Assembly: GCA_001771935.1 (NCBI GenBank)
Contig: MERD01000040.1
Coordinates: forward strand, 106,572-139,732
Source: Betaproteobacteria bacterium RIFCSPLOWO2_02_FULL_67_26
GTDB lineage: Bacteria; Pseudomonadota; Gammaproteobacteria; Burkholderiales; SG8-41
DNA: 33,161 nt
Direction of reading: 5' to 3'
Positions 2,113-7,582 of the stretch are shown here, one piece after another. A program made the position numbers and the translations under genes. Under the pieces are notes generated by a model that was not told the DNA's origin, made no database searches, and saw nothing but the letters and a program-made list of their open reading frames with translations. Within the stretch, counting starts at the first letter, position 1; every line of letters begins with the position of its first letter.

Positions 2113-4266
2113 TCAGCCTCTCCGCCCGCCGCCCGCGGCGTTGTCTCCGGCCAGGGACTTGAGCGTGACGTAGTCGGTCTTGCCGCTGCCCAGCAGCGGC
2201 AGCGTGGCAACGTGAACGACGCGCCGCGCGACCGCGAGGTCCTGCGCCCCGAGCTCGCGCGCCGCTTTTTGCAGTGCAATGCGGTCGAGACGCGGGTCAG
2301 TGGTGAACAGCACGGTGCTTTCTCCCGCCTGCGACGCGAGTTCCAGCGTTGCCGCGTGCTGATAGCCGCGCGAAGCGTGATACGCGATGTGCTCCACGAC
2401 CTCGAGCGAGACCATCTCGCCCGCGATCTTGGCGAAGCGCTTGACCCGGCCGTGGATGGTGACGAACCCTTCGTCGTCCACGTCGACGACATCCCCGGTG
2501 TTGTACCAGCCCTCCCCCAGTTCGGAGCCCGGCGGCCGCAGCACCTCCGGATTCTCGTACAGATAGTACCCGCGCATCAGGTTGGGCCCGCGAACGTGGA
2601 GCACGCCGCCGCGCGCGATGCCGGCCAGCGGCACCAGGCGGTGCTCGATGCCCGGGAGCAGGCGCCCGACGGTGCCCGGCCGGTAGAGCAGCGGCGTGTT
2701 GAGGCTCAGCACCGGCGCGCACTCGGTCGCGCCGTAGCCCTCCATGATGCGCAGCCCGAACTTGCCGAGCCACAGGCCCGCCACTTCCGGATTGAGCTTC
2801 TCCGCGCCCGACACCACGACCCGCGCCTTGTGGAAGTCGTAGGGATGCGCCTGGCGCGCGTAGTGCGCGAGGAAGGTGCTGGTGCCGAAGATGTAGGTGC
2901 AGCCGCGCGTGTACGCGAGCTCCGGGATCACGTGGTAGTGCAGCGGCGTCGTATACAGGTACAGGCGCGCGCCCGAGAGCAGCGGCAGGAGTATGCACGC
3001 CGTCAGACTGTAGGCATGATAGAGCGGCAGGCTGGAAAGGAATTTGTCGTTGGGGCCGAAGTCGATCACGGCGCCCATCTGCGCGATGTTGGCGAGCAGC
3101 GCGCGGTGGCTCAGGGCGACCCCTTTCGGCCGCGCTTCCGAGCCGGAGGTGAACAGCACGACCGCGGTCTCCTCCGGGTCGCGTCCGCGCATCGCGGCGC
3201 GCGGGCGCCACAGCGCCCATCCGATCAGCCAGAGCTTGTCGAGCAGCCCGAACCGGGCGCGCAAATCCTCCAGGTAGACGATGCGAACCGTGCTCAGCGC
3301 GGCGATGGAGCTCGCGAGCCGCGCGACCTCGACGAAACGGCGGGACGTGACTACGGTCTTGATCCCGGCCGCGATGCACGCGCTGCGCAGGGCGTCGGGC
3401 CCGGCGGTGTAGTTGAGCAGCGCGGGGATGCGCCGCATCGCGCCCAGGCCGAGCAGGAGCGCGACCGTGGCCGCCAGGTTCGGCATCAGCACGCCGACGA
3501 TCTCGCCCTCGCCGGCGACCTTGGCGCCCAGCCGTCCCAGCGCAAGGCTCGCCTTGACCAGGTCGCCGTAGGTATGCTCCCGCTGCGTGTCCTCCATGAT
3601 GCGCGTCCGGCGGCCGTGCACGGCGGCGGCATCGAGCAGCGCCGTGAACAGCGTGCGCGCCGGCCGGGACGCGAACATCATGTCCTGCATGATCCGCAGC
3701 AACGCGTCCGCGAGAAGGCGTCGTCTCTGCTTTCCCGGCAGTGCCGTCGGCGCCGGCAAGCGCTCGGCTGGCAGGATCCTGATGGTGACCCGCGGGAAGC
3801 GGCGCTTCGGGAACAGGCCGCCCACCGCGGCGAAACCGGTGTATAGCGTCCCGGTGATGCGCACCGGCACGATGCGGGCATTGCAGTGCGCTGCAATGAC
3901 CGCGGCAGAATCATAGATCTTCGTCAGGCTGCCGGTGGCCGTCGCCGGTCCCTGGGGAAACACGACGACGGGCTGGCCACGCTCCACGAGCCGGATCAGC
4001 CGCTTCAATGTCAGCGGGCTGCGCGGATCCAGGATCACGTGCGGCACCCAACGCATCAGCAGGCGCACCAGCGGACTTCTCATCCCGTCACCGGCAACGG
4101 CGACGGTGATATCCACGGGCAGGAACAGTCCCAGCAAGGCACCATCCAGGCTCGAATCGTGGTTGGCCACGACCAGGACCCGGCCGTCGCGCAACTGCGA
4201 CACGTCCCCTTCCACGCGGACGCGATACACCAGGCGCAGGACAAATCTTAAAAGTTGGATAACCAC
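2113..4266 (-). CDS. aas: Bifunctional 2-acylglycerophosphoethanolamine acyltransferase / acyl-ACP synthetase
   Basis: A 717-residue protein matching E. coli Aas (719) along its length. Residues 1-195 are a PlsC-type acyltransferase with the catalytic H-x4-D (NHDSSLD, H36/D41). Residues 220-710 are an adenylate-forming domain with P-loop LFTSGSEARPKG (about 364-378), YGATECAP, WYNTGD and the C-terminal hinge RFAKIAGEMVSLE. Aas re-acylates lysophospholipids at the inner membrane and activates free fatty acids to acyl-ACP. Oddity: the second acyltransferase motif is FPQG (Q105) where E. coli has FPEG, so acyltransfer may be weakened while ligation looks intact. The usual partner, lysophospholipid flippase LplT, is not in this window. 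Instead the gene is divergent from the DSF synthase, where Xanthomonas keeps the acyl ligase rpfB. The start is GTG 4266 with a weak ribosome site. Confidence 0.9.
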   Translation of the reverse strand: MVIQLLRFVLRLVYRVRVEGDVSQLRDGRVLVVANHDSSLDGALLGLFLPVDITVAVAGDGMRSPLVRLLMRWVPHVILDPRSPLTLKRLIRLVERGQPVVVFPQGPATATGSLTKIYDSAAVIAAHCNARIVPVRITGTLYTGFAAVGGLFPKRRFPRVTIRILPAERLPAPTALPGKQRRRLLADALLRIMQDMMFASRPARTLFTALLDAAAVHGRRTRIMEDTQREHTYGDLVKASLALGRLGAKVAGEGEIVGVLMPNLAATVALLLGLGAMRRIPALLNYTAGPDALRSACIAAGIKTVVTSRRFVEVARLASSIAALSTVRIVYLEDLRARFGLLDKLWLIGWALWRPRAAMRGRDPEETAVVLFTSGSEARPKGVALSHRALLANIAQMGAVIDFGPNDKFLSSLPLYHAYSLTACILLPLLSGARLYLYTTPLHYHVIPELAYTRGCTYIFGTSTFLAHYARQAHPYDFHKARVVVSGAEKLNPEVAGLWLGKFGLRIMEGYGATECAPVLSLNTPLLYRPGTVGRLLPGIEHRLVPLAGIARGGVLHVRGPNLMRGYYLYENPEVLRPPGSELGEGWYNTGDVVDVDDEGFVTIHGRVKRFAKIAGEMVSLEVVEHIAYHASRGYQHAATLELASQAGESTVLFTTDPRLDRIALQKAARELGAQDLAVARRVVHVATLPLLGSGKTDYVTLKSLAGDNAAGGGRRG

Positions 4267-4444: not shown

Positions 4445-4467
4445 AAATCTATCAAAATGTTAGATTT
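4445..4467. promoter_or_regulatory. AT-rich dyad upstream of rpfF, possible operator
   Basis: A perfect inverted repeat, AAATCTA-N9-TAGATTT, in the AT-rich part of the aas/rpfF divergent region. Just downstream is a weak promoter-like pair, TTGATT (4466-4471) and TTAAAT (4490-4495). The size and symmetry suit a dimeric regulator; the MerR-type protein encoded two genes downstream is one candidate, but there is no direct evidence. The remaining bases of the 290-bp region (4267-4556) show no other structure that I can support. Confidence 0.3.
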
Positions 4468-4500
4468 GATTTGTAATGCAAACTGGGCATTAAATCGAAG

Positions 4501-4516
4501 TGTGACATAGATCACA
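4501..4516. promoter_or_regulatory. CRP/Clp/Vfr-type binding site upstream of rpfF
   Basis: TGTGACATAGATCACA is a perfect palindromic match to TGTGA-N6-TCACA, the core shared by CRP, Vfr and the c-di-GMP-responsive Clp. Its centre is about 48 bp before the rpfF ATG. If the weak promoter at 4466-4495 is used, the site covers the start of transcription and would repress. A class II activator position would leave almost no leader, so the sign of regulation is open. Confidence 0.6.
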
Positions 4517-4556: not shown

Positions 4557-5486
4557 ATGGAAATGCTCGTTCCGCCAGCAGTACTGGAAGCCCGCCATAT
4601 TCCCACCGTCCAGCCACTCGCCACCGGCGTCGCGCTCGATTTCTCGCGACAACTGCGCGTTCATTACGACAAGGAGACCTGCGCGATATGGTCGCGCTGG
4701 GCGCCGGAACCGCGCCCGTGCTTCAACCCCGCGGTGCTTGCCGATATCCGCACCTACTACGACTTCCTCGGCTCGAGCCAGGCACGCATTGATTGCTGCG
4801 GCGAGGAGCATGCCATCGAGTACGTGGTGCTCGCCTCGGCCACGCCGGGCGTGTTCAATCTCGGCGGAGATCTCGACCTGTTCAAGCAGCTCATCGGCGT
4901 GCGGGACCGGCCGGGCCTGGTGCGCTACGGGCGCGCCTGCATCGATGTCCTTTACCGCAACTACATCGGGCACGAGCTGCCCGTCACCACCCTCTCTCTC
5001 GTGCAGGGCGAATGCCTCGGCGGAGGATTCGAGGCCGCATTGTCGAGCGACGTCATCATCGCGGAGAAGAGCGCGCGGTTCGGCTTTCCCGAGATCCTGT
5101 TCAACCTGTTCCCGGGAATGGGCGCCTACTCGTTCCTCGAGCGCCGCCTCGGCCAGCGCGGCGCGGAAAACCTCATCACCAGCGGCAAGATCTACAGCGC
5201 GGAGGAAATGGCCGCGTTGGGGGTGATCGACTGCGTGACCGACGACGGCAACGGGGAAGCCGGGGTGGCGGACCTGATCCGGCGCCGCGGCCGCAGCCGC
5301 AACGGGCTCGCCGCCCTGGCGGCGGCGCGGCGACGCGTGCACCGCGTCGAGTTCTCGGAGCTGCTCGACATCGTGCAGATCTGGGTGGACAGCGCGCTGC
5401 GGCTCACTCCGCGCGACCTCAAGCTCATGCAGCGGCTCGTCTCGCGCCAGAACGGGCTGAGCGAGCCCCGCCACCAGATCCATTGA
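4557..5486 (+). CDS. rpfF: DSF synthase RpfF (crotonase-family acyl-ACP dehydratase/thioesterase)
   Basis: A 309-residue crotonase-fold enzyme that closely follows RpfF of Xanthomonas and Burkholderia. Family blocks include EPRPCFNP (51-58), VFNLGGDLDLF (99-109), GECLGGGFEAALSS (151-164) and FPEILFNLFPGMGAYSF (177-193). The two catalytic glutamates fall at E159 and E179, twenty apart as in Xanthomonas RpfF (E141/E161). RpfF dehydrates 3-hydroxyacyl-ACP to the cis-2-enoyl form and releases the free acid, the DSF-type quorum signal. The N-terminal 35 residues are longer than in Burkholderia RpfF. ATG 4557 has a ribosome site (AGGGGAGA, 4543-4550). A perfect CRP-type site lies upstream, aas is divergent, and a MerR-PAS-GGDEF-EAL gene follows after 158 bp, as rpfR pairs with rpfF in Burkholderia. 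No rpfC or rpfG is present here. The chemical signal made cannot be told from sequence. Confidence 0.9.
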   Translation: MEMLVPPAVLEARHIPTVQPLATGVALDFSRQLRVHYDKETCAIWSRWAPEPRPCFNPAVLADIRTYYDFLGSSQARIDCCGEEHAIEYVVLASATPGVFNLGGDLDLFKQLIGVRDRPGLVRYGRACIDVLYRNYIGHELPVTTLSLVQGECLGGGFEAALSSDVIIAEKSARFGFPEILFNLFPGMGAYSFLERRLGQRGAENLITSGKIYSAEEMAALGVIDCVTDDGNGEAGVADLIRRRGRSRNGLAALAAARRRVHRVEFSELLDIVQIWVDSALRLTPRDLKLMQRLVSRQNGLSEPRHQIH

Positions 5487-5644
5487 GTCATCGGCCAGGT
5501 CCGGCGGTCCGCGCCCTTGCCGGGAAGCGGCGGCGCCAATGGCCAACCCATGACAGCTTTGATAGACTCATGAGCCACATCAAGCAACATCGCCCGCGGC
5601 CCGGGGCCGCGGTCAAGAAGCGGGTGCCTGACAGGGGAGCCAGG

Positions 5645-7582
5645 GTGGGCAGCTCGGAGATGGAATACACCATCCAGCAGGTGTCGGAGATGCTCGGCAT
5701 CCCGATCCAGAAGCTGCGGCGCTGGGACGAGCAAGGCGTCCTGGTCGCCGGGCGCACCCACGGGGGCCACCGCCGCTACTCCAGGGAGCTGATCGACCGC
5801 CTGACCGGCTCGGGCCCCGCCACCGCGAACGACAAGGACCGGGAACTGGCGACGATCCGCAAGTCGCTCGCCGAGAAGCGCCGCATCATCCAGCTCCTGC
5901 TGGATAGCGAGAACCGCTACCGCGACCTGGTCGAGACCTCGCACGACCTCATCTGGACGACCGACGCGCAGGGACGGTTCACCTACCTCAACGCGGCGGC
6001 CCAGGCCATCTTCGGACTCGCGCCCAAGGACCTGATCGGCCGCTGCTTCTTCGATTTCGAGGCCGGCACCTCGCACCTGTCCAACCGGCGCTTCCTGGCG
6101 ACGCTGAAGCGCCACAACGAAGTGAAGCACTACGTGACGCGGCTGGTGACCGCCAGGGGTGAAGACCGCTGGATCGGCATCAATGCGCGCGCGCTGGCGG
6201 ACGAGAACGGCGGCATGCTCGGCATCCGCGGCACGGCCCGCGACATCACGGAGGAGCATCTGGCGACGATGCGCATCGAGCATCTCGCGCTGCACGACGC
6301 GCTCACGGACCTCCCCAACCGGCACAGCCTGCAGCGCCGCGTCGAGGCGGCCCTGCAAGCCGGGGGCGTCGGGGCGCTGCTGTTCCTCGACATCGATCAC
6401 TTCAAGTACGTCAACGACAACTTCGGGCACCGCACCGGCGACCAGCTGATCGTGGGGGTCGGCAGCGTGCTGTGCGATCTCGCGCGCAACCTCGACGGCG
6501 AGCTGTTCCGCCTCGGCGGGGACGAATTCGCGATCCATCTGCCCTCGGCGCTGCGCAAGGAAGCCGTCCAGATCGCGGAGCAGGCGCTCGACGCCGTGCG
6601 CCGCTATCGGTTCCAGGCGGCCGACAACAAGGTGATCTCCAGCCTGGCCGCCTCGACGGGCATCGCGCTCTACCCGTTCCACGGGGCCGACATGCTGGCG
6701 CTGCTCGCGAACGTGGACATCGCGATGTACCAGGCCAAGGAGCTCGGCCGCAACCGCCACGTGCTGTTCGACCAGGCGTCCGAGGGCCTGCGCAGCACCC
6801 ACCGGCGCATCCACTGGGCGAAGAAGCTGCGCGACGCCCTCGACGAGGACCGCCTGGTGCTGTTCCAGCAGCCGGTGGTCAGGCTGAAGGACCGCAGGAC
6901 CGTGCATCATGAAATTCTGGTCCGCATCCGCGACGAGGGCGGCGGCTACATCCTGCCCGGCAACTTCGTCGAGCTGGCCGAGTCGCTGGGCCTGATCCAG
7001 GAAATCGACATGCGGGTGGTCGAGAAGCTGCTCGCCTACCTGCGCTCGAGCGGCCAGGCCAACCGCAAGCTCCGCTACTTCGTCAACCTGTCGCGGGTCT
7101 CGATCTCGGACCACCACTGGATCCAGAGCTTCCTCGCGATGCTGCGCGACAGCGGCGTCAATCCCAACCAGCTGGTGTTCGAGATCACGGAGACGGCGGC
7201 GATGTCGGAGATCGACGTCACGCTCACCTTCATCCGGCGGTTGAAGGAGATGGGCTGCCGTTTCGCGCTCGACGATTTCGGCGCGGGCTTCAGCTCGTTC
7301 TACTACCTGAAGCGCTTCGACGTCGATTACCTCAAGATCGACGGCAGCTTCATCCGCGACCTGGCGACCGACGAGGGCAGCCGCATATTCGTGCGCGCCC
7401 TGACCGACGTCGCGCACGGTCTCGACAAGCAGGTGATCGCGGAGTGGGTGGAAAACCCCGAAGTGCTGAACCTGCTGCTCGGGATGGGCACCCAGTTCGG
7501 CCAGGGGTTCCTGTTCCAGCGGCCGGTTCTGCTCGAGCGGGCCGCGATGCCTGCCCTCGCCCGCGGCGCCAGCGCCGCCTGA
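5645..7582 (+). CDS. MerR-PAS-GGDEF-EAL protein, candidate DSF receptor and c-di-GMP enzyme
   Basis: A soluble 645-residue multidomain regulator without membrane segments. Residues 6-52 are a MerR-type winged helix (YTIQQVSEMLGIPIQKLRRW, then GGHRRYS). Residues 60-88 are a charged helical linker, 88-205 a PAS domain with PAC tail, 215-375 GGDEF with intact GGDEF at 291-295, and 395-640 EAL. The EAL metal site looks complete: E423 (in EIL rather than EAL), the N of FVNLS, E of EITET, D543/D544 of DDFGAG, K of LKIDG, E600/E603 of AEWVE, and QG. The allosteric RxxD is absent (NLDG). The order PAS-GGDEF-EAL beside rpfF is that of the Burkholderia receptor RpfR, but RpfR starts with an RpfF-interaction domain, not a DNA-binding one. 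Start: GTG 5645 has the best ribosome site (AGGGGAG, 5633-5639); ATG 5570 and ATG 5660 are alternatives. Ligand and targets are inferred. Confidence 0.88.
   Translation: MGSSEMEYTIQQVSEMLGIPIQKLRRWDEQGVLVAGRTHGGHRRYSRELIDRLTGSGPATANDKDRELATIRKSLAEKRRIIQLLLDSENRYRDLVETSHDLIWTTDAQGRFTYLNAAAQAIFGLAPKDLIGRCFFDFEAGTSHLSNRRFLATLKRHNEVKHYVTRLVTARGEDRWIGINARALADENGGMLGIRGTARDITEEHLATMRIEHLALHDALTDLPNRHSLQRRVEAALQAGGVGALLFLDIDHFKYVNDNFGHRTGDQLIVGVGSVLCDLARNLDGELFRLGGDEFAIHLPSALRKEAVQIAEQALDAVRRYRFQAADNKVISSLAASTGIALYPFHGADMLALLANVDIAMYQAKELGRNRHVLFDQASEGLRSTHRRIHWAKKLRDALDEDRLVLFQQPVVRLKDRRTVHHEILVRIRDEGGGYILPGNFVELAESLGLIQEIDMRVVEKLLAYLRSSGQANRKLRYFVNLSRVSISDHHWIQSFLAMLRDSGVNPNQLVFEITETAAMSEIDVTLTFIRRLKEMGCRFALDDFGAGFSSFYYLKRFDVDYLKIDGSFIRDLATDEGSRIFVRALTDVAHGLDKQVIAEWVENPEVLNLLLGMGTQFGQGFLFQRPVLLERAAMPALARGASAA

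Follow-up and report, generated by a model that had tools for sequence, protein, structure and literature searches.

The locus described here prompts the question whether a protein of the GGDEF-EAL kind can work as a transcription factor gated by a signal. The window (the whole stretch of DNA analysed, 33,161 nt) belongs to a 3.46-Mb assembly of 126 contigs, and the nearest named relatives of this genome are uncultured Betaproteobacteria, e.g., L042 (groundwater) and SG8_41. An earlier note on this DNA described an rpfF gene for synthesis of a DSF-family signal, followed by the gene of a PAS-GGDEF-EAL protein with a MerR-type winged helix-turn-helix (wHTH) at its N-terminus, and proposed that a single protein might carry the signal to the promoter.

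The rpfF gene and the receptor gene downstream

The rpfF-like DSF synthase gene lies at 4557..5486 (+) and codes for a protein of 309 aa with a crotonase fold, predicted to produce a cis-2-unsaturated fatty acid. The coordinates and the two catalytic glutamates given in the earlier note (E159 and E179) were confirmed in this ORF, and both residues are kept in 80/80 aligned RpfF relatives. The best solved relatives are the RpfF proteins of Burkholderia (5fus/6dgn) and Xanthomonas (3m6m), with E about 1e-52, and the next crotonase after the DSF synthases follows at E 2.5e-15. The score of 209 bits is below the NCBIfam RpfF equivalog cut-off (550 bits), but since the RpfR-linked and RpfC-linked RpfF proteins of the same order score 181–227 bits, this cut-off drops all RpfF of the order; that of PRK08788 is passed.

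The downstream gene, hereafter called the receptor gene, is on the same strand after a gap of 158–173 bases. Its ORF is open from 4793, and the likely start is either GTG at 5645, with AGGGGAG just upstream, or ATG at 5660, so that the gene spans 5645..7582 (+) or begins at 5660 (640 aa). Pfam matches to MerR_1 (5.9e-12), PAS (3.8e-17), GGDEF (8.3e-37) and EAL (5.2e-69) bear out the domain order described earlier. The MerR/BldC-type wHTH occupies residues 1–50 (5660..5809, +) and is followed by a linker and a long helix (5810..5935, +; helix 60–91 in the structure model) that is likely to be a coiled coil or signal helix. The PAS domain with its N-terminal helix (residues 76–205; 5885..6274, +) is 63–75% identical among the first 30 relatives; behind it are a GGDEF domain with intact motif (6287..6757, +) and an EAL domain, the motif of which reads EIL and the catalytic set of which is full (6821..7525, +). 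A model of residues 1–205 shows the wHTH topology, the long helix and the PAS domain, with low confidence at residues 51–63 and 85–93. The FI domain of RpfR is absent, and its place at the N-terminus is taken by the wHTH and helix.

Conservation and distribution of the gene pair

With RpfF as query, relatives were found in 47 of 250 genomes of the order, and all of the best 30 matches (54–70% identity, the window itself aside) have a wHTH-PAS-GGDEF-EAL gene directly downstream. In the reverse search, wHTH-PAS was found in 74 of 78 loci, and 71 of the 74 adjoin rpfF; a genome-wide search for rpfF in the case of the three that do not found none. Given the adjacency in 71/74 loci and in 30/30 matches, rpfF and the receptor gene form a conserved module, far beyond a chance neighbourhood. 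The earlier note had considered that the architecture might be common without rpfF neighbours, and this is not the case, the exceptions being losses of rpfF. The uncultured Betaproteobacteria that carry the module live in groundwater, soil and sediment.

No wHTH-PAS protein was found outside the order in the class and phylum samples, which contained only a related PAS in Gammaproteobacteria proteins of ~970 aa. In these proteins (L113, L114, L115 and further such loci) the PAS is 42–46% identical to that of the receptor, a wHTH is lacking, and no rpfF was found beside the genes of L113–L115.

The more distant RpfF proteins in the order are parts of different circuits. Those of L118–L131 adjoin hybrid histidine kinases, with an HD-GYP regulator in the cases examined (RpfC/RpfG type), and those of L132–L135 adjoin RpfR. 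In the tree, the wHTH-linked RpfF proteins are split from the RpfC- and RpfR-linked ones by a branch with a support of 97/100; L117 is the one divergent outlier, and the receptor of this locus contains a stretch that resembles an HTH but gives no Pfam match. Genome G065 carries both an rpfF of the wHTH type (L032) and a second one of the RpfC-linked clade (L128).

The winged helix and a dyad at the rpfF promoter

The wHTH resembles that of BldC, in which Arg30 and Lys26 read bases, Trp31 contacts the backbone, and the wing inserts His46, Arg47 and Arg48 into the AT-rich minor groove of a site that reads AATT-N4-C; binding is abolished by R30A and likewise by substitution of H46 (PMC5859096). 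R30, W31, H46, R47 and R48 of BldC correspond to R21, W22, H37, R38 and R39 of the receptor, all invariant in 22 relatives along with R20, G35 and Y40, and the Lys26 position is occupied by a variable residue (Q17 in the window protein). On these residues, DNA binding by the receptor is a well-supported prediction.

A candidate operator was found upstream of rpfF as a conserved 23-bp dyad, AAATCTATCA-AAA-TGTTAGATTT, at 4445..4467 (+). Its family consensus is AAAYCTAWCA-N3-TGTTAGATTTG: in 60 of 71 non-redundant regions upstream of rpfF, at least 15 of the 20 arm positions agree with it and the dyad overlaps the -35 element; shuffled sequences reach at most 14. Each arm (AAAT-CTAW-C-A) has the same spacing as the BldC half-site. 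The rpfF promoter, assigned by column conservation over the 60 sites, lies at 4466..4494 (+), with the -35 element TTGATT at 4466–4471, a 17-bp spacer and the -10 element ATTAAA at 4489–4494 (or TTAAAT if shifted by one; the family consensus is TTTAAT). These three parts are conserved in position, and the last bases of the dyad overlap the -35. A generic promoter scan missed this promoter, which is too far from consensus. The geometry is unlike that of classical MerR activators, where the dyad is found between -35 and -10 elements spaced by 19 bp, whereas here it lies upstream, overlapping the -35, and the spacer is 17 bp.

When the 250 genomes were searched for close matches to the dyad (at most one mismatch), sites were found in 20, all 20 of which encode the receptor, and the reversed pattern, used as a control, gave none (P about 8e-21 for the co-occurrence, 250 genomes, without phylogenetic correction). 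Checks of RpfC- and RpfR-type loci, and of genomes with the receptor but without rpfF, found no dyad, and in families f30, f40 and some of f19 it is degraded. The wHTH is the likely binder of the dyad, judging from the contact residues and the half-site spacing. A partial Mantel test for co-variation of wHTH and dyad gave no specific signal (-0.15), which is weak evidence against binding because both are nearly invariant. Since the dyad and rpfF co-occur, another regulator with the same distribution may own the dyad.

A second palindrome, the CRP-like TGTGACATAGATCACA (4501–4516, between the -10 element and the start codon of rpfF), was considered and rejected: apart from the window, a perfect copy occurs only in L042, the nearest relative, and matches in the other upstream regions occur in numbers close to those of shuffled sequences.

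The Aas-like gene and the shared fate of the module

Divergent from rpfF is a gene (2113..4266, -) for an Aas-like protein that combines an acyltransferase with an AMP-binding ligase, i.e., an acyl-CoA(ACP) synthetase. It flanks rpfF in this orientation in 60/74 loci, is absent from every locus that has kept the receptor and lost rpfF, and in L094 and L102 travels with the rpfF/receptor pair to a different neighbourhood, away from the nuo genes; it is a probable third member of the module. Xanthomonas RpfB is linked to DSF signal turnover, and by analogy the Aas-like protein is possibly a signal-turnover enzyme. Another fatty-acid ligase near DSF signalling is FadD1, an acyl-CoA ligase (PMC12754631).

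This association could also be read as lipid recycling rather than signalling, with RpfF and Aas acting together and the receptor sensing an Aas-like product, a free fatty acid or a lysolipid. The frequent divergent arrangement, and the absence of the Aas-like gene where rpfF is missing, would agree with such a role, but RpfF groups with the DSF synthases far above other crotonases and keeps both catalytic glutamates, and in family f48 rpfF, receptor and dyad are present although aas is absent, so that lipid recycling appears very improbable.

A receptor without a synthase is rare among the loci, and the two genes also decay together: G216 has only a remnant of rpfF, and its receptor gene is interrupted by stop codons. 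Six loci (L142, L143, L144, L090, L092 and L093) retain a receptor without rpfF, aas or dyad, and are possibly eavesdroppers or relics.

The PAS domain and its ligand

RpfR binds BDSF via S169, N172, Y183, R187 and N202 (PMC6361424), which align with N142, F145, K156, T160 and N175 of the receptor. The first four, which hold the carboxylate, are not conserved. N175 is invariant in the receptor family, and its match to N202 was considered as evidence for DSF binding and dropped, as ordinary PAS domains encoded in these genomes often have Asn at this position too. Residues specific to the family (RCFFxFE...NRRF) map to the part of the domain by which RpfR grips the carboxylate, and would agree with a different way of holding a fatty acid. 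Foldseek and VIA searches with the PAS model returned generic and LOV PAS domains as the nearest structures; the RpfR PAS was not among the best 50 matches of either, a result that speaks neither for nor against fatty-acid binding. From its linkage with rpfF, DSF would be the ligand of the PAS domain. The one-protein route proposed in the earlier note thus fares differently in its two halves: the direct promoter step gains from the BldC contact residues and the dyad on the rpfF -35, but the comparison of the PAS with RpfR that the note had called for went against an RpfR-like pocket.

The same PAS results would suit a sensor of redox state, light, oxygen or a generic metabolite, for which rpfF would be a mere target gene and the PAS ligand something other than DSF. 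The model is nearest to LOV/redox PAS domains, the RpfR pocket residues are absent, and Complex I genes are nearby. However, receptor and synthase are nearly always together and decay together, also away from nuo (L094 and L102), and the family-specific residues sit at the RpfR carboxylate stretch, which leaves this explanation unlikely.

The GGDEF-EAL part and loss of the enzyme

The EAL domain of the window receptor has all of its catalytic residues (E418, N476, E508, D538, D539, K559, E595 and Q615), and it probably degrades c-di-GMP; the GGDEF motif is intact and its RxxD is off-register. The phosphodiesterase (PDE) catalytic set is kept in 43 of 73 full-length relatives (window protein counted) and lost in the other 30. 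One clade reads GEDQF (GEDRF in one member) and EIF, with Lys at the position of the catalytic Glu595; L059 is a relative of this EIF/Lys type. Identity to the window protein in the EAL domain is 0.51 in the PDE-broken group versus 0.71 in the intact relatives, whereas in the PAS the two groups are alike (0.72 versus 0.73), and the broken group retains the wHTH and PAS and, in most cases, the dyad at rpfF. Since the PDE residues are lost while wHTH, PAS and mostly the dyad persist, c-di-GMP turnover is, on the sequences compared, optional, and ligand sensing and DNA binding are the conserved core. The coupling to c-di-GMP metabolism that had been envisaged may thus apply to the window protein without being central to the system. 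On whether these proteins amount to a LuxI/LuxR-like DSF system, in which a DNA-binding receptor descended from a c-di-GMP enzyme controls the operon of its synthase, and a whole clade has a dead enzyme and is left with the signal-responsive transcription factor only, our judgement is evenly balanced.

This pattern also bears on the possibility that the receptor is a DSF-controlled c-di-GMP enzyme like RpfR, with the wHTH in the role of the FI domain (RpfF contact or dimerisation) and the dyad belonging to some other regulator. The gene neighbourhood follows the same logic as RpfF/RpfR, the GGDEF and EAL motifs of the window protein are intact, and a wHTH-like fold can also have an architectural role or mediate protein contacts. 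Yet the DNA-contact residues are invariant, the dyad is confined to receptor genomes and is shaped like BldC half-sites, and the 30 relatives that lost their PDE residues keep wHTH and PAS, making an RpfR-like enzyme a distinctly unlikely account.

Further dyad sites and the proposed circuit

Candidate regulons were sought by dyad pattern search. With up to three mismatches, the window genome has only three places, at rpfF, C98:27497 and C98:33639, and certain genes have a second site in several genomes. One such gene, related to haem oxygenase/TenA (PF14518), has the dyad at its promoter in L186 (1984–2955), L184, L188 and L189; in L184 and L186 it is directly downstream of a PAS-GGDEF-EAL gene, and the -35 is TTGACA. 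Another codes for a small protein of 121–126 aa without Pfam family, found with a dyad at its promoter in the window genome (L206:7071–7436 (-); L182) and in G090 (L195:3152–3532). The third dyad of the window genome (L206:13641–13664) is upstream of an ORF of ~230 aa with no assigned family, and the gene after this ORF, read by eye, looks like a class III nucleotide cyclase with GAF-GAF-PAS domains.

A sensor with DNA-binding parts and a conserved site in the promoter of the synthase suggest direct gene switching on the signal. The features from which we argue (gene pairing, domain set, dyad and its restriction to receptor genomes, promoter geometry and enzyme loss) are all read from the sequence, and on balance we favour a DSF circuit of a third type that differs from both RpfF/RpfC/RpfG and RpfF/RpfR, its receptor doubling as the transcription factor for its own synthase operon. 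The PAS domain would bind the cis-2-unsaturated fatty acid made by RpfF, and a receptor dimer would bind, via its wHTH, the dyad over the rpfF -35 and a few other promoters, so that the signal would act on the transcription of target genes, those of the receptor's own operon among them, with no further effector in between. DNA binding by the window protein may be tuned by its EAL domain, as it is in PdeL and other trigger phosphodiesterases. For the sign of regulation we lean slightly to repression modulated by ligand, because the dyad overlaps the -35 and TTGACA is found at second sites.

If this circuit is real, it would be widespread in the uncultured Betaproteobacteria noted above, and a single protein would join fatty-acid signal, c-di-GMP and promoter. 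With a defined candidate operator, a candidate regulon of just three sites in the window genome and naturally occurring variants in which the enzyme is dead, the module makes the question posed at the outset directly testable.

Comparison with known systems

The closest parallel is RpfF/RpfR (BDSF; Burkholderia and Cronobacter), in which a DSF synthase gene is likewise beside a gene for a soluble PAS-GGDEF-EAL protein. RpfR differs in having an FI domain and no wHTH, and in the pocket residues S169, N172, Y183 and R187, which the receptor has not kept; in L132–L135 its gene is convergent with rpfF and a dyad is absent, whereas the receptor gene is on the same strand as rpfF. In Burkholderia, RpfR requires a separate regulator, GtrR (PMC12838280). 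The RpfF/RpfC/RpfG system of Xanthomonas, a type also present in the same order (L118–L131), shares a DSF synthase of the same family but uses a hybrid histidine kinase as receptor together with an HD-GYP regulator, and has neither a PAS-GGDEF-EAL protein nor a wHTH.

PdeL, a trigger phosphodiesterase of E. coli, has an HTH fused to an active EAL domain, binds promoters and autoregulates at an imperfect palindrome (PMC5052742). It resembles the receptor in combining HTH and EAL in one protein, the EAL domain of the window protein being predicted from its full catalytic set to be competent, but its HTH is LuxR-type and it lacks PAS, GGDEF and any link to a signal synthase. MerR-like wHTH regulators of the BldC/CarH type share the contact residues and the pattern of an AT-rich element, four bases and C; BldC differs in having no sensor domain and in binding direct repeats head to tail, whereas the receptor has PAS-GGDEF-EAL attached and an inverted repeat as its candidate site. 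DsfR of B. cenocepacia (PMC12838280) and FadD1 of P. aeruginosa (PMC12754631) are DSF-family receptors that bind promoters directly, but they are leucine-zipper proteins rather than wHTH-PAS-GGDEF-EAL, without a comparable autoinducer-receptor gene pair.

The literature searched (openly licensed PMC papers) contained no description of this architecture combined with a linked synthase and an operator, and to that extent the earlier statement that no characterised DSF receptor is built this way stands for the architecture. Direct promoter-binding DSF receptors (DsfR and FadD1) and an HTH-EAL fusion (PdeL) are already known; what is new here is a 23-bp dyad at the rpfF promoter that is restricted to genomes with the receptor.
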